Of a stretch of DNA of 25,170 nt, positions 1-22,288 are shown one piece after another; positions within the stretch are counted from its first letter, which is position 1; each line of letters opens with the position of its first letter. This DNA is from a virus. The notes below the pieces were generated by a model that saw nothing but the letters and a program-made list of their open reading frames with translations, had not been told where the DNA came from and did not search any database. The DNA lies in the IMG/VR virus record IMGVR_UViG_3300033388_001206, positions 1 to 25,170 of that record. One strand, written 5' to 3'. A program made the translations under genes and the position numbers.

Positions 1-74
1 TACTTATTGTTTTCAACCGTAGGCTTTATGACGCCATCGAAATCAATTGCAACTATTTTATATCTTCTTTTCAT
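1..74 (-). CDS. HAD-superfamily hydrolase, N-terminal fragment (runs off the left edge)
   Basis: Only the first 24 codons are inside the window. They read MKRRYKIVAIDFDGVIKPT and so on, and contain the HAD motif I, hydrophobic strand followed by DFDGV, in which the first Asp is the phosphorylated nucleophile and the second the general acid. HAD proteins are Mg-dependent phosphatases or related phosphotransferases; the substrate cannot be told from so short a piece. The ATG at 72-74 lies inside the 3' end of csf3, overlapping it by 17 nt, so the gene is very likely translated as part of the csf operon. Small HAD proteins are also common as phage accessory genes, so a link to the CRISPR genes is not shown. 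Confidence 0.7.
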   Translation of the reverse strand, partial: MKRRYKIVAIDFDGVIKPTVENNK

Positions 75-747
75 ACTTTACCTCCGGTATAAAACATAAG
101 CGTTGATGGTCGCTCCACCAGTACGGCGGCCTTATCCCCCACTGCCGAATCGTAACACCCACACGCGCCTGGCCATCGAAGGGAATAGCACGCATCAACC
201 TGCCATTCGGGCCGTACACGCTCCAATCTTCGGACCAGGGTGTAACTTCCCACCAATCTACGGCACCTAGTCCCTGGGAGGATTTTTTACCTATATGTGT
301 TACGCCTAAGCACAGATCCCGCACAGCCTCTATATCACCTACCGCATACCATACTAACTGGTCAAACAACTGCACCACCAACGGCATGCGGTAGGCTTTG
401 TACCTACTACTCTTTACATTTATCTTTCCACGCTTGCCACCGAAGTTGATATACTTCTCCAGGTGGTCGTCGAATCGCTTGTGCCAGTGCATGACGTATT
501 CGCCCAGGGGTGGCTCCATATTAAACGAGCAGGCCCAGTACCAGTTATCGCCATCCCCCCGGCGCTCGAAAGGAAGTTCCGGGGTAATGAGGTCATTGGT
601 CAGCATATGGCTGCTGGCATTATAATAAGCCTCCGGGTGGTTACGCCGCATCCATTCGGCGGCAAGGATTCCGTCAAGCGGAAACCAAGGGTCAGTTCCC
701 GCTATGCGTCCATCCTGCAAGCGTGCAGTAATGCGTATCGGCTGCAT
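58..747 (-). CDS. csf3: Type IV CRISPR-Cas protein Csf3 (Cas5-like)
   Basis: A 229-aa protein with RAMP character: a beta-strand-like N-terminus (MQPIRITARLQDGRIAG) and a glycine-rich loop, IGKKSSQGLGAV, at residues 152-163, typical of Cas5/RAMP proteins. In type IV systems the Cas5-like subunit Csf3 caps the 5' end of the crRNA in the effector complex. Length fits Csf3. The start ATG overlaps the csf2 stop codon by one base (TAATG), so translation is coupled, and the next gene downstream begins inside its 3' end. Seen: the loop, length and position. Inferred: the subtype and Cas5 role, from order after csf1, the small subunit and csf2. A different RAMP family (type I or III Cas5) is less likely because of the neighbours. 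Confidence 0.8.
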   Translation of the reverse strand: MQPIRITARLQDGRIAGTDPWFPLDGILAAEWMRRNHPEAYYNASSHMLTNDLITPELPFERRGDGDNWYWACSFNMEPPLGEYVMHWHKRFDDHLEKYINFGGKRGKINVKSSRYKAYRMPLVVQLFDQLVWYAVGDIEAVRDLCLGVTHIGKKSSQGLGAVDWWEVTPWSEDWSVYGPNGRLMRAIPFDGQARVGVTIRQWGIRPPYWWSDHQRLCFIPEVKYEKKI

Positions 748-1769
748 TACTTACCACCGCCAGCTGCAAGCAGTTTCTTTAGTTCATCCGCCTTGTTTTC
801 GAGATACTGGTTATAAAGCTGCACCAAGAAGTCATCATATTGGTTTTTCGCCTCTTCCGCGGGTTTGGACAACCATAAGCAATCTGCCGACACCGACAGA
901 AATTTTCCCGTAGTTTCTTTTGCCCCTGCTGGCCGCCAGGTGTATTCAATGTCGCATAACCCACAGCCTATGTTTGATTTTCCCCCAATATATGGATGTT
1001 TTGAAAACTCCACCAGCGCCGACACGAAGGCGCCCAGTTCCAGGTCGGTCATGTCGCATAAATCAATCCGCTGATACAAAACAGCACCCGCCGCCAGCAT
1101 TTCCACCGTGTACCTCATCTGCTGCGGCAGGTCCTCTTTCTTCTTTTTCTTTTCCTCCTGTACCGGTTCGCTTCCATCTGTTATCGCCAGGGTAGGCTGC
1201 CCTTCCGATAAGGCCAGGCGATTTTCCGCTGGATCATGTAGGTATTTGCGTAGGTTTTCGTTTTTAGCGTCGTCCATCCGCGTAAAACTTTTCTCAAACG
1301 TCCACTGCCGCCAGGACGGAGCGTTTGGATCGCGCAGGTGTTCCGGCAATATCCGCTGGCACTCGGCAACAAGCGGGTACATCGCGCCGATTTTGACTTT
1401 TCCCGTGAGGATCTGATTGCCTACGCTGCCGCCGAAAACGGAAAGCATGGGTACATTACGGCGGTAAAGGCGAGCCTGATCAATGTCAACGGATTGTTCC
1501 CCGCCCAGGGAGCCACCGGAGAAAAGCAGGTAGAACACCGCCGGATTATATTGCAGACCACCTAACTTTTCGGTCATGTAGATGGCAGCGAGGTCGCGCA
1601 GTATACCGCGGAACGAATTTCCACTGTAAATCGTACATTCTGTAGGTTTTCCGTCTGAATCAATAATGATATCGGTGGACAAATAGGAGTCAACGCCAAG
1701 CGACTCACCTATGTGTGAAAGCGGGCTTAATAATGTGATTTTTCCATCTAAACGAATGTTATGTGTCAT
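747..1769 (-). CDS. csf2: Type IV CRISPR-Cas protein Csf2 (Cas7-like backbone)
   Basis: A 340-aa protein that begins with a RAMP-type strand and the segment ITLLSPLSHIGES (residues 11-23), followed by SGNSFRGILRDL at 49-60. This 'isGnslRG.lR' signature is typical of Cas7-family backbone proteins, including Csf2. Csf2 polymerises along the crRNA guide to form the body of the type IV effector. Length matches the family. Residues about 205-220 are a Lys/Glu-rich, probably disordered linker (EEKKKKKEDLP). The start codon overlaps the stop of the cas11-like gene (TAATG) and its stop overlaps the csf3 start in the same way, a strictly coupled operon. Cas7 assignment is strong; the type IV label depends also on the adjacent csf1. 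Confidence 0.86.
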   Translation of the reverse strand: MTHNIRLDGKITLLSPLSHIGESLGVDSYLSTDIIIDSDGKPTECTIYSGNSFRGILRDLAAIYMTEKLGGLQYNPAVFYLLFSGGSLGGEQSVDIDQARLYRRNVPMLSVFGGSVGNQILTGKVKIGAMYPLVAECQRILPEHLRDPNAPSWRQWTFEKSFTRMDDAKNENLRKYLHDPAENRLALSEGQPTLAITDGSEPVQEEKKKKKEDLPQQMRYTVEMLAAGAVLYQRIDLCDMTDLELGAFVSALVEFSKHPYIGGKSNIGCGLCDIEYTWRPAGAKETTGKFLSVSADCLWLSKPAEEAKNQYDDFLVQLYNQYLENKADELKKLLAAGGGK

Positions 1770-2242
1770 TATTCAACTACCTCCCCTGTTTCTGTATCTA
1801 CGAATTTTGCTTCAATCGGCTTTTCTCTTTCAAGCCTATCTCTAACCAGCAAAATGACCAGCGAAGCTTTTTGATAAAGCACGTCCAGTACTTCCCGGTG
1901 ATCCACCATTTGCAACACGTCCGTTAAAAACTGCCTACGGCCCTTGTCCTGCACCTGGATAACAGACCCATCTTCCATCATCTTCATACTTATTATTCCG
2001 TCCGGCAGGGTCTTCGCCCAACGCGGGTGAATCGTTGAGCAATAAAGTTTTGGCTTTAGTTTTTCGATAAACTCTCCCAAATCAGTCGCTCGTTTAGCAA
2101 CGCTTTTCACGGCCCGTTCAGTCTGCCCCCATAGATCTGGCGTTACCTTGAAGCGTTTGACGTCCCGGCTCCGGTAAATTGCGTAAACTAAAAGGGCAGC
2201 TGTAGCTGCCCGCTCGTCGTCTGTATCAAAGTTGTAGAACAT
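1769..2242 (-). CDS. Putative Cas11-like small subunit of the type IV effector
   Basis: A 157-aa, mostly helical, charged protein with no motif I can name. It lies between csf1 and csf2, the position of the small subunit (Cas11) in type IV-B loci, and has a suitable length. The ATG at 2242 is preceded by an excellent ribosome binding site (AAAGGAGGAG, 5 nt before the start). This start is 55 nt inside the csf1 3' end, so the two genes overlap unusually far. The stop codon overlaps the csf2 ATG by one base. Cas11 proteins lie along the belly of the complex and stabilise crRNA or target strand binding. The Cas11 label is an inference from position, size and helical make-up; sequence alone does not prove it. 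Confidence 0.6.
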   Translation of the reverse strand: MFYNFDTDDERAATAALLVYAIYRSRDVKRFKVTPDLWGQTERAVKSVAKRATDLGEFIEKLKPKLYCSTIHPRWAKTLPDGIISMKMMEDGSVIQVQDKGRRQFLTDVLQMVDHREVLDVLYQKASLVILLVRDRLEREKPIEAKFVDTETGEVVE

Positions 2243-2958
2243 GGCTTCTCCTCCTTTTTCTTTTCTTCCAGCTTCTGCGCTACAAATATGGCCAGGTCGA
2301 AAAGCCTGGTTCCCCGGTGCGGCGCGATCTTTTCTTCCATTGCTTGAAACTCTGCTAATCCAAACTGCTTAATCCGGTTCTGGTTATACCGTCCCGTTCT
2401 GATTTCTTCCTTTGAAAATACGGCATATAACTGCTCAATTACACTCAGCCAGTCAGTTAGCGGTTTCCTCCAGACGCAGACCATCGTATCCTCGAACTGC
2501 ACCGGAAAGCCGTCTCTGTCGTAAGCCACCTGCGCCCGGAAATGCAGCCAACGCTGGCCGCTAATAGCTATACAGAACACAAACGGCGGTTCCGGCGGTT
2601 CAAGCAGGAAATTCCGGATCTCCGGCCTGGAAGGGTGTCTTAGCCCTGCTTCCGTAGCCAGTATGCTGTAATTTCTCAGCGACATAAACGATAGACAAAA
2701 GGCGCACCCTGGACACACTGATTTACTCCCCGGCCACCTGGCCTTGTCCCGGTCGGTAAATGTGTCTTTGATCGTCTTTTTTACCGGTTGGCCCCTGCCC
2801 CCGGTCAATCCGCCGCAAAGCCAGCAACGGGTGTCCGGTACGTCTGCCAGCGGCACATCGGTGTATTCCACCACTTTACCCATCGCTACGGGTACATGTG
2901 GCGTTTTCAGCGCGGCCTGCCTGATAAACTGCGTAGGCGTTAGCATCACCATCGCCAT
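2188..2958 (-). CDS. csf1: Type IV CRISPR-Cas protein Csf1 (large-subunit-like, zinc finger)
   Basis: A 256-aa protein with a four-cysteine zinc-binding pattern, CWLCGG at residues 45-50 and CPGC at 82-85 (another Cys at 88), separated by a basic stretch. A short protein of this size with paired CxxC motifs at the head of a csf2/csf3 operon is the hallmark of Csf1, the Cas8-like signature subunit of type IV systems. The rest has W-rich and basic segments and a Lys/Glu-rich tail. Start is uncertain: ATGs at 2958, 2952 and 2946 are in frame, and the AAGGAAGG site is best spaced for the one at 2952. It overlaps the upstream 104-aa gene and runs 55 nt into the cas11-like gene. No nuclease or helicase motif is visible. 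Confidence 0.8.
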   Translation of the reverse strand: MAMVMLTPTQFIRQAALKTPHVPVAMGKVVEYTDVPLADVPDTRCWLCGGLTGGRGQPVKKTIKDTFTDRDKARWPGSKSVCPGCAFCLSFMSLRNYSILATEAGLRHPSRPEIRNFLLEPPEPPFVFCIAISGQRWLHFRAQVAYDRDGFPVQFEDTMVCVWRKPLTDWLSVIEQLYAVFSKEEIRTGRYNQNRIKQFGLAEFQAMEEKIAPHRGTRLFDLAIFVAQKLEEKKKEEKPCSTTLIQTTSGQLQLPF

Positions 2959-4756: not shown

Positions 4757-5818
4757 TTAATTTGGCCTGGTCAGTATGATCTCGCGTGTGTCTGCCCGAT
4801 ATTCAACGATATAGCCCATGTTTCCAGCCACAAATCGCAAAGGTATCATGGTTCGGGCCTTGTCGGTAATAAAAGGTTCCTGATCCATAAGCACCTGCAA
4901 GCCGTCTACCACAGCTATCTTGTTGCCAATGGTGAGTTCGATCTTTTTTGCGGCCTGGGGAGCGGCCAGATCCAACGCCGTCCACGCTTCATAAAAAGCC
5001 CACCCCATGTCGGTTTTGTATGTAACCCAGGGGTAAGGCAACCAAGCGTAGCCGTTATCACCCCAAGACGTTCCCCAGGAATTACGCAGGAGGAAAGCCT
5101 GCCTCTCGTCGCTGTACCCCACCAGCGCTACGGCATGGCCGCCGAGTATTCTGCCACCTGGAAGTGGAATGGCGTAATCCGGCGGCTTTACGTTGAGGAA
5201 GTTGCTACACACCAGCACGGCAGCCAGAACGACGCCTTCCTGATAGATTGCCCTTTTGAGTTCTTCTACCTTACCCGTACGGTTTTTGTCGGTAAAGTTA
5301 CAAACCGAGGCATAAGTTTGGATTTTGTATTTTGCGGCGGAAGTATTCAGGTTAGACGGCAGAGCAGGCACGTTCTTATCGCTGGTTAGCCAGGAATACG
5401 GTAGTTGCTCCTCTGTACACACACCGAAATCACGAAGAACTTTGAGAGCTACCCTTGGGTAAGTTCCGGTCTGGTCAGGTATCCCGTCCATCTGCTTGCA
5501 TTTAGCGTAGAGGTATGCTACGGATAAACCGCTGGCTGGGAAGTCTCCCTGTACGGTCTCCTGAAAAGCCTTCAGACCCCAGCAGGAGGCCGCCGCAACA
5601 CAGGTTCCGTAAGAACCCTGGTTCCATACCGGCGGCAGGTTCGAGCGGTAGTCTACTTCAAACGGTATCTGTTCTGCCGTAAGTTGCGGTACAAGGTTAG
5701 CGTACCTATAATCCCGATAATCCGGCGAGGACGGATATGCTCCGGTAACGTAGTCACCTGCGCCGCCTAAAGCCGTGGTCAGTTCGTTCATGGCTTTACG
5801 CCAAAGATTCCACGCCAT
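4757..5818 (-). CDS. Papain-family (C1A) cysteine protease with C-terminal copper-amine-oxidase-N-like stalk domain
   Basis: A 353-aa protein. The protease part spans about residues 45-285 with the oxyanion Gln67 and catalytic Cys73 in WNQGSYGTC, His228 in GGHAVALVGY and Asn246 in LLRNSWGTSWGDNGYAW, a complete C1A active site. Residues 292-352 (KIELTIGNKIAVVDG, later ARTMIPLRFVAGNMG) form a stalk or copper-amine-oxidase-N1-type beta domain, common on cell-surface proteins of Clostridia. No signal peptide is evident. It follows the amidase in the lysis region, behind a terminator-like hairpin. Possible roles are cleavage of peptide cross-links or surface proteins during lysis, or an accessory gene changing the host surface. 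The start at 5818 is uncertain; ATG 5791 is an alternative. Confidence 0.85.
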   Translation of the reverse strand: MAWNLWRKAMNELTTALGGAGDYVTGAYPSSPDYRDYRYANLVPQLTAEQIPFEVDYRSNLPPVWNQGSYGTCVAAASCWGLKAFQETVQGDFPASGLSVAYLYAKCKQMDGIPDQTGTYPRVALKVLRDFGVCTEEQLPYSWLTSDKNVPALPSNLNTSAAKYKIQTYASVCNFTDKNRTGKVEELKRAIYQEGVVLAAVLVCSNFLNVKPPDYAIPLPGGRILGGHAVALVGYSDERQAFLLRNSWGTSWGDNGYAWLPYPWVTYKTDMGWAFYEAWTALDLAAPQAAKKIELTIGNKIAVVDGLQVLMDQEPFITDKARTMIPLRFVAGNMGYIVEYRADTREIILTRPN

Positions 5819-5924: not shown

Positions 5925-6695
5925 TTAGGTAAGATTCTTAAAGGCCGTGTACAGCTTCACAAGCAAAGCATCGAGATTCTTAATGTATCTTAGAGCACCT
6001 CTCCAATAATCCGGGTTACTAATGATACCTCTGCTCACCAGCCAATCAATTACTTGCTCCGGATTAACTTTATCTACGAAATTCACTCCCAGGTATTGGC
6101 ATATTGCTTTTGCTATCACCTTACCTACAAGTTCTTGATTCCCCGCGTTGGTCAGCCAAGCCTCTTCTATAGGGTTGGAAAGAAAAGCCACTTCCACCAG
6201 GGCAGCGGGCATAGCGGTATGGCGTAGCACATAGAAATGTGCTTCCTTCACTCCTCTGTTTTGTAACTCGGTAGCCTCTCCCGCCGTGACGGGAATATCT
6301 GCTTCCTTCACGGCAATAATTTTGCCAGACGGCGTATTGGTGGCAAGGAATAGTTGCATGTTCAGTAGGTTCGCCAGTCGCAGGCCCTCCTTGCTCCCCT
6401 CGTAGTAGTAGACTTCCAGACCGTTGGCCTCCGGGTTCTCGCTTGCGTTAGCGTGGATCGAGACAAAGCACGAGGCACCAGACTTATTTGCTATGTCACA
6501 TCGTTGCTGAAGGCTTACGTCTACATCATTCTTGCGGGTCATTACAACTTCAACGCCTTGCTTACTCAGCCACCCGCTTGCACAGAAAGCAATACTGAGG
6601 TTAACGTGCTTTTCGGTAACGCCCATGGATCCTAAGGCTCCCGGGTCTCGTCAGCGGCCCCCGTGGCCAGGATCAACGCACGCAATCAGGGGCAT
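5925..6695 (-). CDS. N-acetylmuramoyl-L-alanine amidase (Amidase_3) endolysin, interrupted by an in-frame TGA at codon 15
   Basis: The frame from ATG 6695 has a textbook ribosome site (AGGAGG, 8 nt upstream) and encodes MPLIACVDPGHGGR, then TGA at 6651-6653, then RDPGALGSMGVTEKHVNLSI and a full Amidase_3 domain. Zinc ligands would be His11 (DPGHGG), Glu28 (TEKH) and His81 (SIHAN), with catalytic Glu168 (LVEVAFLSN). The C-terminal 60 residues are a small helical region. Amidase_3 enzymes cut the MurNAc-L-Ala bond of peptidoglycan. Translation from ATG 6626 gives a 233-aa protein lacking His11, which should be inactive. Between GHGG and DPGA one residue is usual; here there are three codons, CGC TGA CGA, so a 6-nt insertion is possible. 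TGA followed by C is a leaky context. Confidence 0.85.
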
Positions 6696-7307: not shown

Positions 7308-7432
7308 AGTCATCTCTTTTGTTGTGTTATCTCGCTGAATGTTCTTCATTACTTGTTACATGATTGTCGAATCTTTCCGCAAACCTATGGACCTGTTCCT
7401 CATGTCTGGTAACTCGGATCTCAAGGAGACAT

Positions 7433-12938: not shown

Positions 12939-13595
12939 CTACCTCCCGTTGCTCCGCAGATTACGGCGTTCCTGCGCCCGGTAAATGTACGCCTCAACCT
13001 GCTCATTGCCGATGTAAACGTAGATGTCGCCCGTGCCCGCCAATTGAGTAGTGCGAAAGGCCGCCGCTATGCGCTCGGCCAGCTTGTCCATCCAGCTGGT
13101 GTCAGACAGGGGCAACAACGCTTCGGGGCCGCGCTCGCCCACGCCGATAACGGCGGGCCGGGTAATTATGCCGCCCTCGCCGTACCAGCGCACGTCTATG
13201 TCGGGCACAGGAAGAGATATCCCTGCTATAGACTTGGAACCGATACTGAAACTGAAATGCGGAGTAGGGATACGCAAGGACTTAATTCCGTCAATTAACC
13301 TGTCAATAATATCCCGCCCCCACCAGTACGCCCGGCTCGGGATGGACTTGATATAACCCCAGGCTTCGTTTAGCCGGCTTTTGATTGTGGACGCTACATT
13401 AGAGCCGTATCTGCTTGCGCTGCTAACTATATTGCCCCATACCTTGTCGATCCTTGCTTTCATGTTGTCCCAGACGTTCAGAATGGAGTTTTTGATCGAA
13501 CCCCATTTGTTACCGGCAGTTACCCGGAAGTTATCCCAGGACGATCTGAGGTAGCTACTTATATTGCTCCATTTTGTAGCTATGTTCTGCCGCAT
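12939..13595 (-). CDS. Tape measure protein, C-terminal part (out of frame with the N-terminal part)
   Basis: A 218-residue frame that continues the Trp-rich helical repeats of the tape measure (WSNISSYLRSSWDNF, VWDNMKARIDKVWGNI) and ends in the usual C-terminal region: GEGGIITRPAVIGVGERGPE, followed by ALLPLS. The 'GGI...p..igvGErGpEai.Pl' motif is found at the end of many Firmicutes phage tail tape measure proteins. The frame overlaps the N-terminal part by 41 nt. It is not expected to be a separate gene: the overlap is exactly where a 22-bp tandem duplication changes the frame (13586-13629). A Met codon exists at 13595, but no good ribosome site is apparent. Confidence 0.85.
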   Translation of the reverse strand: MRQNIATKWSNISSYLRSSWDNFRVTAGNKWGSIKNSILNVWDNMKARIDKVWGNIVSSASRYGSNVASTIKSRLNEAWGYIKSIPSRAYWWGRDIIDRLIDGIKSLRIPTPHFSFSIGSKSIAGISLPVPDIDVRWYGEGGIITRPAVIGVGERGPEALLPLSDTSWMDKLAERIAAAFRTTQLAGTGDIYVYIGNEQVEAYIYRAQERRNLRSNGR

Positions 13596-15813
13596 GTTGT
13601 CCCACCATCTGCCGCATGTTGTCCCACCAAGTTGATATGGTCATAACAATAGATTGCCACTTAGTACCGGCTACCCTTTTGAAATTATCCCACCAGCTGG
13701 AGATGGAGTTACTTATATTTTTCCAACAGTTGGATATGCCTTGCTTTAGTTCGTCCCAGTTGTCGAGTACAGTATTTACTATTTTTTCCCACCCGACGCT
13801 CGTCTTCTTTTTTATTCCACCCCAAAGGCCGGACACCCAGTCAGCAAAGTTACCCCACTTGATTTTTACCCCTTCCCATATATTGCCAGCCCAAGCTAGA
13901 AAGCCGTCCCACTTTTGTTGTATGCTGTCCCAGAGGGGGCCTGCCCAACCGACAACCCAATTGGTGAAGCTACTCCATCTCTCCTTTACACCTTCCCATA
14001 GCCCGGCTGCCCAGTCTTTAATTTTGCCCCAGTTTTTATATATAAGAACACCTATGGCGCCAACTGGCCCTGTAAGCGTAGCTAGAATTTCCCACCATTT
14101 TAATCCCGTTTTTTCCTTAATCCAGTCCCAGGCATTAACAAACCCTTGCTTTACCCAATCCCAAAATCCACTCAATGTCGGCTTCGCTTGATCCAGAACA
14201 CTCATATCCAGACCGGGTAAAGTAGCAGCCTCAGGAGCCTCCAGTGCAGGCATAGCTATCTGATCCAACCCGACGGTTATATCTTCGGCGGCCCCGGCGG
14301 TATCGGCCATGAGGCGGTTGATTTCATCAAACGGTTGCAGGTTATCTTTTGCCGCCTTACCCGCCTTTTCCGTTCCATCAGCTTGTTCTTCCATCCCTTC
14401 CGCAGCCTGCTGGCTGGTATCGGCCATTTCCGTTTCCTGTCCGCTCATTGCTGCCAGCGTCTTCTCCAGGTTGGCCCGCTCCACGCTTGCGGCATACTTG
14501 CTCCAGAGCATGATTCCCCCGGTTACGGCGGCAGATACGCCCATTATCGCCCAGCCTAAAGGCCCCATGGCAGCCCATACTGAATACAGGGCTGTGCGAA
14601 GGACTTGCAATATTCCTACGTGGGCAATGCCGGCCATGGACGCCAAATGTAGCTGCAAACGGTATATTTGCACCGCCCGGGCCACGAAGTTTAGAATACC
14701 GGAAGTTACTACGGCCTCCCCCCTCATGACGGCAGTAGCAAGGGTAAAACTCACTATAGCGTTCCGCGCTAAGGTTAATACCCAAGTAACAGTCTTAAAA
14801 ACTAAGAAAGCTGTTACGGCCCCTAGCACCACTGGTTTGATTATGGCCCAGTGCCTTGCTATCGCTTTCACTATAGTTTTCGTGGTATTCCAGAACCCCT
14901 GTAATATAGCCGTCATTGTATTGATAGCAGCGGCAAAATCTGCTCCGAATGCCTTAGTCAGTGCCACACTAAGCCCGAGCCTTCGAAAGGTGTCGTAAAA
15001 ATCAGTTGCCCAATCCCGCACTCTCTGTAACCAGGAAGTTAAGCTTTTGAATAACCCCGATGTCAATGCCCCCATCGTCATGCGCCAGACATCTCGAATA
15101 GTAGAAGTGACACCTTTCCAAGTATTTTCCATGTTCTCCATCATGTTAGGAAAGCGTTTCTCCATGCCTTCGATGAGTATCTGAATGGCTTTATTTGCCG
15201 GGATTAAGCCTTTTTCGGAAAGTTTCATTACTTCCGCAGTAGATTTGCCCATCGCCTCAGCCAGCATCTCCCACGCCGGTATTCCTGCTTCTGTGAGCTG
15301 GCGCATTTCTTCCCCGGAGATTTTAGCCTTAGCACGCATCTGCCCTAAAGCAAGAATTATACGGTTTATGCCTTCTCGTCCTAAACCTAACCCGGCTGTG
15401 GCATCGCCTACGGCTTTCATCGTTGGCAAAACTTCTTCGGCCGCAAAACCCATTGCCATCATGCGCCTTGAAGCTTCGAGCAAATCGGGATACTCAAACG
15501 GCGTTCTGGCAGCAAAGTCGGCCATCTCATCCAAAAACGCCTGGGCCTTCTCTGCGCTGCCCAGCATGGTAGTAAAACCTATCCGGGCCTGCTCCATCAT
15601 GGCATTGAAGTTTACAGCTTCGCCTACTACGGACTGAAAGCCGCGCCGAATGGCCTCAAAGAAGCCGATGCCGATGGCTACAGAGAAGGCATTCTTAAGC
15701 ATATCACCGAGCCTGGTGCTTGTTGCCTGAGTCTGCTTTTCCATTCGGGCCAAACCCTGCTCGTACGCTTTTGTATCTATTCCAAGTTTGAATAAGAGTT
15801 CGCCTACGGTCAT
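13555..15813 (-). CDS. Tape measure protein, N-terminal part (truncated by a frameshift)
   Basis: A 752-aa frame from ATG 15813 (GGTGGTGGAAAA upstream). It starts with the tape measure signature (LFKLGIDTKAYEQGLARMEK) and a domain rich in 'GF..M.GSAEKAQAFLDEMA' and 'TPFEYPDLLEASRRM', then has hydrophobic segments at about 305-430, and after residue 540 a series of Trp-rich repeats (WDWIKEKTG, WEGVKERW, WDSIQQKWDGF). The tape measure fixes tail length and helps DNA entry. The normal protein continues into the other frame; removing one copy of the 22-bp repeat gives a single 950-aa protein. Here it ends after 20 wrong-frame residues (QHAAEHSYKMEQYK). Confidence 0.9.
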   Translation of the reverse strand: MTVGELLFKLGIDTKAYEQGLARMEKQTQATSTRLGDMLKNAFSVAIGIGFFEAIRRGFQSVVGEAVNFNAMMEQARIGFTTMLGSAEKAQAFLDEMADFAARTPFEYPDLLEASRRMMAMGFAAEEVLPTMKAVGDATAGLGLGREGINRIILALGQMRAKAKISGEEMRQLTEAGIPAWEMLAEAMGKSTAEVMKLSEKGLIPANKAIQILIEGMEKRFPNMMENMENTWKGVTSTIRDVWRMTMGALTSGLFKSLTSWLQRVRDWATDFYDTFRRLGLSVALTKAFGADFAAAINTMTAILQGFWNTTKTIVKAIARHWAIIKPVVLGAVTAFLVFKTVTWVLTLARNAIVSFTLATAVMRGEAVVTSGILNFVARAVQIYRLQLHLASMAGIAHVGILQVLRTALYSVWAAMGPLGWAIMGVSAAVTGGIMLWSKYAASVERANLEKTLAAMSGQETEMADTSQQAAEGMEEQADGTEKAGKAAKDNLQPFDEINRLMADTAGAAEDITVGLDQIAMPALEAPEAATLPGLDMSVLDQAKPTLSGFWDWVKQGFVNAWDWIKEKTGLKWWEILATLTGPVGAIGVLIYKNWGKIKDWAAGLWEGVKERWSSFTNWVVGWAGPLWDSIQQKWDGFLAWAGNIWEGVKIKWGNFADWVSGLWGGIKKKTSVGWEKIVNTVLDNWDELKQGISNCWKNISNSISSWWDNFKRVAGTKWQSIVMTISTWWDNMRQMVGQHAAEHSYKMEQYK
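13586..13629. repeat. Perfect 22-bp tandem duplication inside the tape measure gene
   Basis: Two identical 22-bp copies, 13586-13607 and 13608-13629 (each starts TCTGCCGCATG and ends TCCCACCA). As 22 is not divisible by three, the second copy shifts the frame between the two tape-measure parts. Confidence 0.97.
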
Positions 15814-15903: not shown

Positions 15904-16356
15904 ATGGTTAGAATATTTATCTACTTTTGCCTGGTGATAGCACTTTTCTTATCTGCTGGGTGCTCTGCATCAGAACAAGATTCGAAAGTTCAACCGATCC
16001 AAGAAAAAGCCCAAGAAAAAGTAACTGTCCCTGAAAAACAGGCCCGAGAACAAGAAGCGGCCAAGGCTTTAGCAACTTACCTCTATGAGAACTTTGGGGG
16101 TGCTGGCGATCCTAAGTACGCTACATCTTGGTATAGCTCAATAAAGAGCATTCGTGTCGAATTGGAATCAGACGGTCAGGCTAATGTATTAGTGAATACG
16201 GATTATATAGCTGGCAAGAAAGATAAGTTAGCTGAAAAGATAGCCTCAACTATTGCAACCGCCATCGCAGGAAGCAGTGTGGTTGACGTTAAGTCTGTAA
16301 CAGTATTTGGCCAAAACGGTATTGTAGGCTCATGGTCTTTTTTCCGAGACAACTAA
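15904..16356 (+). CDS. Predicted lipoprotein (moron gene; possible superinfection-exclusion factor)
   Basis: The only clear plus-strand gene. A 150-aa protein with a lipoprotein signal peptide: basic start MVR, hydrophobic IFIYFCLVIALFL and lipobox LSAGC with Cys20. A Lys/Glu/Gln-rich linker (about 24-55) leads to a compact C-terminal domain (KALATYLYENFGGAGDPKYA, ending VGSWSFFRDN). It should be anchored outside the membrane. AAAGGAGG lies 9 nt before the ATG. A possible -10 box TATAAC is at 15877-15882, but the -35 is weak. It interrupts the minus-strand tail operon between GT and the tape measure and ends 3 nt from the GT stop. Lipoproteins that block DNA entry are known from phages such as Streptococcus TP-J34; that function here is only an inference. 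Confidence 0.8.
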   Translation: MVRIFIYFCLVIALFLSAGCSASEQDSKVQPIQEKAQEKVTVPEKQAREQEAAKALATYLYENFGGAGDPKYATSWYSSIKSIRVELESDGQANVLVNTDYIAGKKDKLAEKIASTIATAIAGSSVVDVKSVTVFGQNGIVGSWSFFRDN

Positions 16357-20346: not shown

Positions 20347-20754
20347 CTAGCTAGCTGAGTAAAGTGGAATAGCATAGTCTGCGCCGTCTAGGTTGACCTT
20401 CAGCCATTTTTTTGTCGTGCCAGCATATTCACTGTCCGTGAGCATATCCCTAGCAGACCCGGGTATGGTCAAAAACACGTCCGGCAGCGCGATCCCCTGG
20501 AAGTGCAGGGCTGACTTCGCAACTCCCGAACCCTGGAGCGACATAAGGACGAATGCATCTACAGAACTGCCTTTGGCCGTAGTCTCTCTTTGTAGCCACA
20601 AGTTGGACTGATAATCAGTCGCTCCTACTTCAGTAAGGTGAACGTTCCAGCCTGTAACAGTTTGTGCAGACAAATCCGGAGTTCCGTTTTTGCCGATGTA
20701 AATATAACCGCCGTTGACGTTTGCGGTTTCTCCTACCGTCAGATCGGCGGCCAA
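20347..20754 (-). CDS. C-terminal part of a frameshifted structural-region protein
   Basis: A frame that reads as a normal protein from about 20805, upstream of its first start codon (TTG at 20754): ATGAKTGGSAVSQWNGLAAD, then LTVGETANVNGGYIYIGKNG and a beta-rich end (LKVNLDGADYAIPLYSAS). The upstream residues are not preceded by a start, so it looks like the continuation of the gene at 20992. The full protein would be about 214 aa. Function unknown; position beside capsid and connector genes suggests a head decoration or joining protein. Confidence 0.6.
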   Translation of the reverse strand: MAADLTVGETANVNGGYIYIGKNGTPDLSAQTVTGWNVHLTEVGATDYQSNLWLQRETTAKGSSVDAFVLMSLQGSGVAKSALHFQGIALPDVFLTIPGSARDMLTDSEYAGTTKKWLKVNLDGADYAIPLYSAS

Positions 20755-20992
20755 GCCGTTCCACTGAGAAACAGCAGAGCCTCCTGTCTTTGCTCCAGTA
20801 GCCGCTAGAAAACGTCGAACTATCTGTAACTGTTAGAGAAAACGCATCGTCCGCAGCTTCGCTGGCAATCGTGCCAAGTGCTACGTCCACCGCTCCGGCT
20901 GCACTGTTAGTAATAGTGGAACCTTTGTTCAAAGTAATTTTTCCTGTAACCAAAGCACCGACTATCGCTTTACCTTTCGTCAGCAAATTCAC
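20630..20992 (-). CDS. N-terminal part of the same frameshifted protein
   Basis: Starts with GTG 20992 (MNLLTKGKAIVGALVTGKIT). Residues 1-63 read normally: KGSTITNSAAGAVDVALGTI, then EAADDAFSLTVTDSSTF. After that the frame becomes Arg/Cys-rich and random (RRLCCFSVERLGRRSD). A +1 step within 20803-20812 rejoins the good frame AATGAKTGG. The 646-nt span is one base more than a whole number of codons. The residues after 63 are not likely to be real protein. Confidence 0.65.
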   Translation of the reverse strand: MNLLTKGKAIVGALVTGKITLNKGSTITNSAAGAVDVALGTIASEAADDAFSLTVTDSSTFSSGYWSKDRRLCCFSVERLGRRSDGRRNRKRQRRLYLHRQKRNSGFVCTNCYRLERSPY

Positions 20993-21002
20993 CTATCATC
21001 CC

Positions 21003-21332
21003 TCACTTTCCCTTTGCCTTGTCAAGATTGAGCGGAGCAAGTTTCTCCATCAGTCGCTCTTCTCGCTCCGCCATCCTGTCTTCTTCCTCCGGCGTCAGCA
21101 CTTTGCCGGAATGCCGCTTGTCACCATGATGCTCACGCTCTGCGAGGCCGATAAACTCAGCCCCGCAGATGCCGCATCTATAGATTTCAGCCTTTCTTTC
21201 AACCGGAGCAAAATACTCGAGGCGCACGAGTTTCTCATCATTTCGTGCGCCTACGAGTTCAGTAATCTGTCCGCGATCTAATTCTTGGCCAGCGTAGGCG
21301 AATGGCCTCCTGGCCCAGTACTTTTTAGCCAT
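21003..21332 (-). CDS. Small protein with a C2H2-type zinc finger, in the head operon
   Basis: A 109-aa protein (MAKKYWARRPFAYAGQELDR at the start). Residues 53-74, beginning CGICGAEF and ending EHHGDKRH, form a C-x2-C plus two-His zinc finger pattern (Cys53, Cys56, His68 or 69, His74). The C-terminus is a charged helix (EEDRMAEREERLMEKLAPLN). Its stop is just before the frameshifted gene and its start overlaps the capsid gene stop. Such small zinc-finger proteins occur beside major capsid genes in some Clostridia phages; their role is unknown. Confidence 0.65.
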   Translation of the reverse strand: MAKKYWARRPFAYAGQELDRGQITELVGARNDEKLVRLEYFAPVERKAEIYRCGICGAEFIGLAEREHHGDKRHSGKVLTPEEEDRMAEREERLMEKLAPLNLDKAKGK

Positions 21333-22288
21333 TACGCCACCGCCCCCGACATGAAGAGACCGGCATTTGTTCCGACGGCCTTCTGGTCGTAGTAGGTGTT
21401 TGCTTCGAAGATGTCCACTTCACGTTCCTCGTCCCTCATGCGCTTGATATACTGGAGTGCGTTCGGCACCACTTGCCATACGAAGGTGTAACCAGCAGCA
21501 GGCGTTAAGAGCGAAGGCCGCGCCGGTACGTAGATCATCAGGGCGTTCTTACCCCAAATCCGGGAATAGCTTACAGATGCTTCAGCGGTTCCTTCAGCAG
21601 AAGTAGTGTAAATCGCCCGGCCAATTAAAACTTTGTCGAACTCGGCCAGGGAAGCGAATAGGTCTTTAGTCAGCTGACCTTTCTGCGTATACTTGATCGT
21701 GTCAATAAGGTCGGGGTGCCACTTCAGCTTTAACCAGACCTGTTTGCCCATAACCAGAACATTCGGCTCTCGGCCAATTGCAGCTTCCACTGTGTCCTTG
21801 TAGTCGTCGAGGTCAGTCAGTGGGCTAGAGTTGGCATAGTCGCTCCAGACGGTGAAATCGCTACCACCGGTCTTGTCCGTACCCCACACTGAAGTGGTGA
21901 AAAAGTCAGTTGCAAACGCGACCTCGCGCCGCATCTGGATCTTGTCCGTCACCCATTCGGTGGCGTCCCGGTCAAGGTTGAACGGAGCATCCGCGTTCTT
22001 CCTGGTGTCGTCGTCGATTTCCTTACGAATAGAGTAACGGTCGCAGAAGTATTTGGCAGTAGTTGTTACCTTCCATCCGCCGCCGGCAGACTTCGTGCCG
22101 GGCGCACGAAGCTTAGCCTCATCCCGGAACCAGTGGGACTGGTCGTACTGCGGGATGATGTCGGACTGCTTCTGCACCGGTACAATTGGGAATATCTGGT
22201 CGGCGATGTACTCGGGGTTTTTATATGCAATAGAAATATTGGTAAGAAGTTGATCAATATGGAGACTTGAAGCCGCAGGACTAGGCAT
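21332..22288 (-). CDS. Major capsid protein
   Basis: A 318-aa protein beginning MPSPAASSLHIDQLLTNISI, with YIADQIFPIVPVQKQSD, IIPQYDQSHWFRDEA and later KVTTTAKYFCDRYSIRKEID. This is the N-terminal pattern of a common family of phage major capsid proteins (HK97-fold, 'Phage major capsid protein E/P22-like' type): a strand-rich N-arm, an 'IPvY.....F.d' motif and 'RKeIDDDtR'. Late in the protein are GKNALMIYVPARP and QYIKRMRDEEREVDIFEAN. Its place after the scaffold and cement genes fits. Encodes the coat subunit. Confidence 0.88.
   Translation of the reverse strand: MPSPAASSLHIDQLLTNISIAYKNPEYIADQIFPIVPVQKQSDIIPQYDQSHWFRDEAKLRAPGTKSAGGGWKVTTTAKYFCDRYSIRKEIDDDTRKNADAPFNLDRDATEWVTDKIQMRREVAFATDFFTTSVWGTDKTGGSDFTVWSDYANSSPLTDLDDYKDTVEAAIGREPNVLVMGKQVWLKLKWHPDLIDTIKYTQKGQLTKDLFASLAEFDKVLIGRAIYTTSAEGTAEASVSYSRIWGKNALMIYVPARPSLLTPAAGYTFVWQVVPNALQYIKRMRDEEREVDIFEANTYYDQKAVGTNAGLFMSGAVA

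Follow-up and report, generated by a model that had tools for sequence, protein, structure and literature searches.

Tape measure gene split by a 22-bp tandem duplication in a probably decaying temperate phage

Tape Measure Gene and the 22-bp Duplication

The analyzed stretch of DNA (hereafter, the window) is a whole metagenome-derived IMG/VR record of 25,170 bases. Its tape measure gene is split by an exact 22-bp tandem duplication, which is probably an ordinary loss-of-function lesion in a decaying temperate phage. Since at least two further phage genes of the window are broken, the duplication points to a dying prophage or to an assembly fault, and not to an on/off switch. The coordinates of the features are given in Table 1.

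Table 1. Features of the window that bear on the state of the phage.
Feature	Position	Strand	Remarks
Tape measure gene, N-terminal part	13555..15813	-	752 aa, of which the last 17 are out of frame; TMP_3 and PHROGs matches
Tape measure gene, C-terminal part	12939..13595	-	218 aa, GERGPE ... GNEQVEAYIYRAQERRNLRSNGR; PHROGs matches
22-bp unit, copy 1	13586..13607	.	TCTGCCGCATGTTGTCCCACCA
22-bp unit, copy 2	13608..13629	.	Identical to copy 1, head to tail with it
In-frame TGA in the endolysin gene (Amidase_3)	6651..6653	-	14 codons past ATG 6695, between GHGGR and RDPGA
Remaining endolysin frame	5925..6626	-	No HGG zinc-binding segment; match to Pfam Amidase_3 from profile position 19
Head-module gene following the major capsid gene, with a break at about 20800	20347..20992	-	32-bp deletion relative to L012/L013
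Major capsid protein gene, intact	21332..22288	-	Query for finding relatives

According to the analysis in the TRF program, the array at positions 13586–13629 has a period of 22 and 2.0 copies with a 100% match, which confirms the perfect duplication reported there by the first-pass annotation. The window contains the unit exactly twice, against zero occurrences expected from 100 shuffles, and no further copy with up to three mismatches was found elsewhere in the 25,170 bases. A search for the unit in viral contigs gave 0 hits. The array comprises exactly 2.00 copies, with no microhomology in its flanks. The exactness of the copies had also been taken as a sign of a recent or reversible event; the step to recency is weak, since 22 identical bases bound the pairwise divergence of the copies only to about 13% at the 95% level. 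A hairpin-driven duplication was considered and rejected, as folding at the repeat is ordinary (z -0.6).

The repeat is located on the minus strand at the handover from the 752-aa ORF to the 218-aa ORF, and it shifts the frame because 22 bp correspond to seven codons and one base (22 = 7 x 3 + 1). The 752-aa ORF matches the Pfam family TMP_3 (PF20155) with 107 bits (cut-off 41, E 1.3e-30), and tape-measure PHROGs, e.g., 1535, 58 and 167, match both ORFs; PHROGs 12798 and 1686 were also matched. Thus, in place of a single long frame leading from the N-terminal domain through the repeats to the C-terminal domain, the window contains two pieces of 752 and 218 aa. In nine independent relatives among the viral contigs (L002, L004, L006, L008, L009, L020, L041, L042 and L044) the tape measure protein is encoded by one uninterrupted ORF of 815–1054 aa, and no comparable duplication is present in their tape measure genes. 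Because its frame is split in comparison with these continuous ORFs, the window gene was classified as a broken, non-working tape measure gene.

A tape measure profile of 882 positions was built from the whole proteins of five relatives; the 752-aa piece covers its positions 3–670 and the 218-aa piece positions 656–882. In addition, the 752-aa piece contains a ladder of tryptophan residues with 11-residue spacing (W675, 686, 697, 708, 719 and 730). In the frame of the 218-aa piece, copy 2 encodes its own WWDNMRQ, and the ladder continues with W9, 20, 31, 42 and 53, keeping exact register across the repeat. Since both the ladder and the profile join across the repeat, the one-copy state is ancestral and the duplication derived. 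These results bear out the earlier claim that the duplication breaks the gene. The claim that removal of one copy restores a 950-aa frame is arithmetically right: (2875-22)/3 gives 951 codons including the stop. The contig closest to the window at the end of the tape measure gene is L011 (85% over the last 27 residues); its junction is not comparable, since this contig begins (L011:1) inside the gene.

In a siphophage-like temperate element, the duplication would have arisen among the Trp repeats of the tape measure gene. Owing to the frame shift, translation stops 17 residues past the WWDNMRQ of the first copy, and the truncated protein lacks the entire C-terminal domain, by which tail assembly is started. 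The two-copy phage would consequently have lost its tails. In the lactococcal phage TP901-1, deletion of the last 30 residues of the tape measure protein leaves heads only, and infectivity requires about 60 residues at the C-terminus (PMC5099701). The tape measure protein of this phage contains aromatic repeats of 11 and 18 residues (PMC5099701). The window thus resembles TP901-1 in the 11-residue Trp ladder of a long tape measure protein, and in TP901-1 the start of the tail requires the C-terminal domain; the window gene differs in the frameshift that splits it within the ladder and in its family match, TMP_3 (PF20155).

It is very improbable that the split gene still functions, with the C-terminal part being produced through re-initiation at ATG 13595 or ribosomal frameshifting and both parts cooperating. 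The ATG of the 218-aa ORF is preceded by a GGTGGGA stretch from the second copy, and programmed frameshifts are used by the neighboring chaperone genes in such tail regions (PMC4493119). However, the stop codon of the first ORF follows this ATG only after about 40 nt, no slippery site was noticed, the gene is fused in all relatives (nine independent cases) and further genes are broken in the same record.

Lesions in Other Phage Genes

The frame of the endolysin gene starts with ATG, encodes MPLIACVDPGHGGR, reaches a TGA codon and then continues with RDPGALGS. The motif GHGG-x-D is uninterrupted in five related endolysins, and the stop codon of the window falls within the HGG catalytic motif. 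Recoding of TGA was considered and rejected: eight ORFs of the window end in TGA, and the codon in the endolysin gene was therefore read as a stop.

The head-module gene that follows the major capsid gene is a single ORF of 225 aa in the contigs L012 and L013 (about 86% identical); relative to it, 32 bp are missing in the window, which shifts the frame. Since L024 and L025, 53% identical to the L012 protein, retain the 32-bp segment, the deletion took place in the line of the window. A further apparent frame break at 20.2 kb proved spurious, as it corresponds to an upstream small ORF and the gene begins at MTWSYD. The remaining capsid, tail, holin and csf genes appear intact.

A defective prophage was expected to show at least two inactivated phage genes, and the tape measure gene, the endolysin gene and the gene next to the capsid gene are inactivated in the window. 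This suggests a prophage in decay, one that would make no infectious particles. The likeness to defective (cryptic) prophages lies in several phage genes being inactivated in one element with others intact; the differences are that the lesions of the window are only mid-size indels and that no host flank was noticed on the record. Each of the three lesions is, or may be, a 6–32-bp indel, and a 1-bp frameshift is absent. This spectrum is odd for neutral decay and counts against the decaying-prophage reading. An improbable variant is domestication, in which virion and lysis genes were lost by mid-size indels with the csf genes kept as cargo useful to the host, the tape measure break being one step of this process.

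The first-pass annotation had left two outcomes for the duplication, a dead prophage or a reversible slip that switches virion production on and off among the lysogens. The stop codon in the endolysin gene and the 32-bp deletion favor the former, and the latter is the least probable of the readings considered here. Exact tandem duplications are able to revert via slippage, and capsule phase variation in Streptococcus pneumoniae is reportedly controlled by sequence duplications (Waite 2001, 2003, as cited in PMC4022640). As in the pneumococcal genes cap3A, cap8E and tts, an exact non-triplet tandem duplication inactivates the window gene in a way that is reversible in principle; unlike in the capsule switch, other genes of the element stay broken after reversion. 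Even after one copy was lost, the endolysin would stay dead and the 32-bp deletion would persist, so that reversion would not restore function. Moreover, the tape measure gene of the relatives is uninterrupted and has no such repeat, repeated gain of a copy would be unaided by microhomology or a hairpin, and a literature search found no paper on a prophage whose tape measure gene is switched in this way. If true, a two-copy allele acting as a switch would be a new way of gating prophage output. As it stands, the duplication looks either like a routine mutation that inactivates one gene of an otherwise already broken phage or like an assembly fault. The case advises inspecting neighboring genes for lesions before an exact repeat is called reversible.

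Tandem Arrays and Indels in Related Contigs

The main rival to the decaying-phage reading is an assembly artifact, in which a 22-bp overlap was left unmerged when two contig ends or strain variants were joined; the natural tape measure gene would then be intact. This was judged unlikely, yet far less so than a switch or a functional split. The record is a metagenome-derived IMG/VR contig, and an array of 2.00 copies without microhomology is what a missed overlap gives. Three related contigs (L005, L010 and L011) end within the tape measure gene. On the other hand, the 44 bp of the array are short enough for one short read, and the other lesions of the window differ in type (a deletion and an in-frame stop).

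A survey of exact tandem arrays with units of 15–199 bp covered 106 records of related contigs, the window included, with a total of 1.34 Mb. Among the 23 arrays found, the unit is divisible by three, which keeps the frame, in 19, and of the four with non-triplet units only that of the window interrupts a long gene; around it, 739 codons are open upstream and, in the shifted frame, 214 downstream. The 23 arrays in the 1.34 Mb do not pile up at 22 bp or any k-mer-like length, which argues against an assembly origin; the specific proposal of a k-mer artifact (22 = k-1, k = 23) was rejected, there being no excess of 22-bp units.

An all-against-all survey of frame breaks was noisy at gene boundaries, and two cases besides the window were taken from it by inspection. 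In L018 (position 7142), a gene is broken by an exact 11-bp tandem duplication, a unit below the range of the array survey. In L026, the same gene carries a deletion of about 50 bp at about position 7361. These cases indicate that genes are broken by mid-size indels elsewhere in the close group, too, through either decay or assembly, and they can be counted in favor of an artifact. However, the L026 deletion is flanked, by eye, by CGAT repeats, as biological slippage would give.

Temperate Nature and Prophage Status

A tyrosine integrase or serine recombinase is encoded in seven of twelve related records, which indicates that the phage group is temperate. On the 25-kb record of the window neither enzyme was found and no host flank was noticed; its prophage status is therefore taken from the relatives. 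No near-identical intact record was found in searches that may omit near-identical records. The search with the fiber protein gave 0 hits and no near-identical copy, and comparison of the capsid protein with host genomes matched one MAG at 66% identity, again with no near-identical copy.

Type IV CRISPR Operon and Other Accessory Genes

Of greater interest than the duplication is the operon of type IV CRISPR genes carried by the phage group. According to PADLOC, csf3, csf2, cas11 and csf1 form an intact type IV CRISPR effector operon (positions 58–2958, minus strand), which adjoins the phage lysis genes. No CRISPR array, DinG or CysH was noticed on the 25-kb record. The csf2 gene was also found in three related phage contigs (L011, L012 and L017), of which L012 contains csf1, cas11, csf2 and csf3 together, and in L065–L067 at 66–72% identity. 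Since type IV systems are known from some phages and prophages (PMC11656645), the operon represents a recurrence in one phage group and not a new kind of system.

A lone ORF of 150 aa on the opposite strand (15904–16356, plus) separates the tail chaperone genes from the tape measure gene. Its product is lipoprotein-like by eye; it has no Pfam match and no homolog in the eleven related loci compared, and it is possibly a prophage cargo (moron) gene. In the lysis region, the window encodes a protease of the papain family (Peptidase_C1; 4757–5818, minus strand), which has a copper-amine-oxidase-like N domain; a homolog (51%) is located near the endolysin gene in L017.
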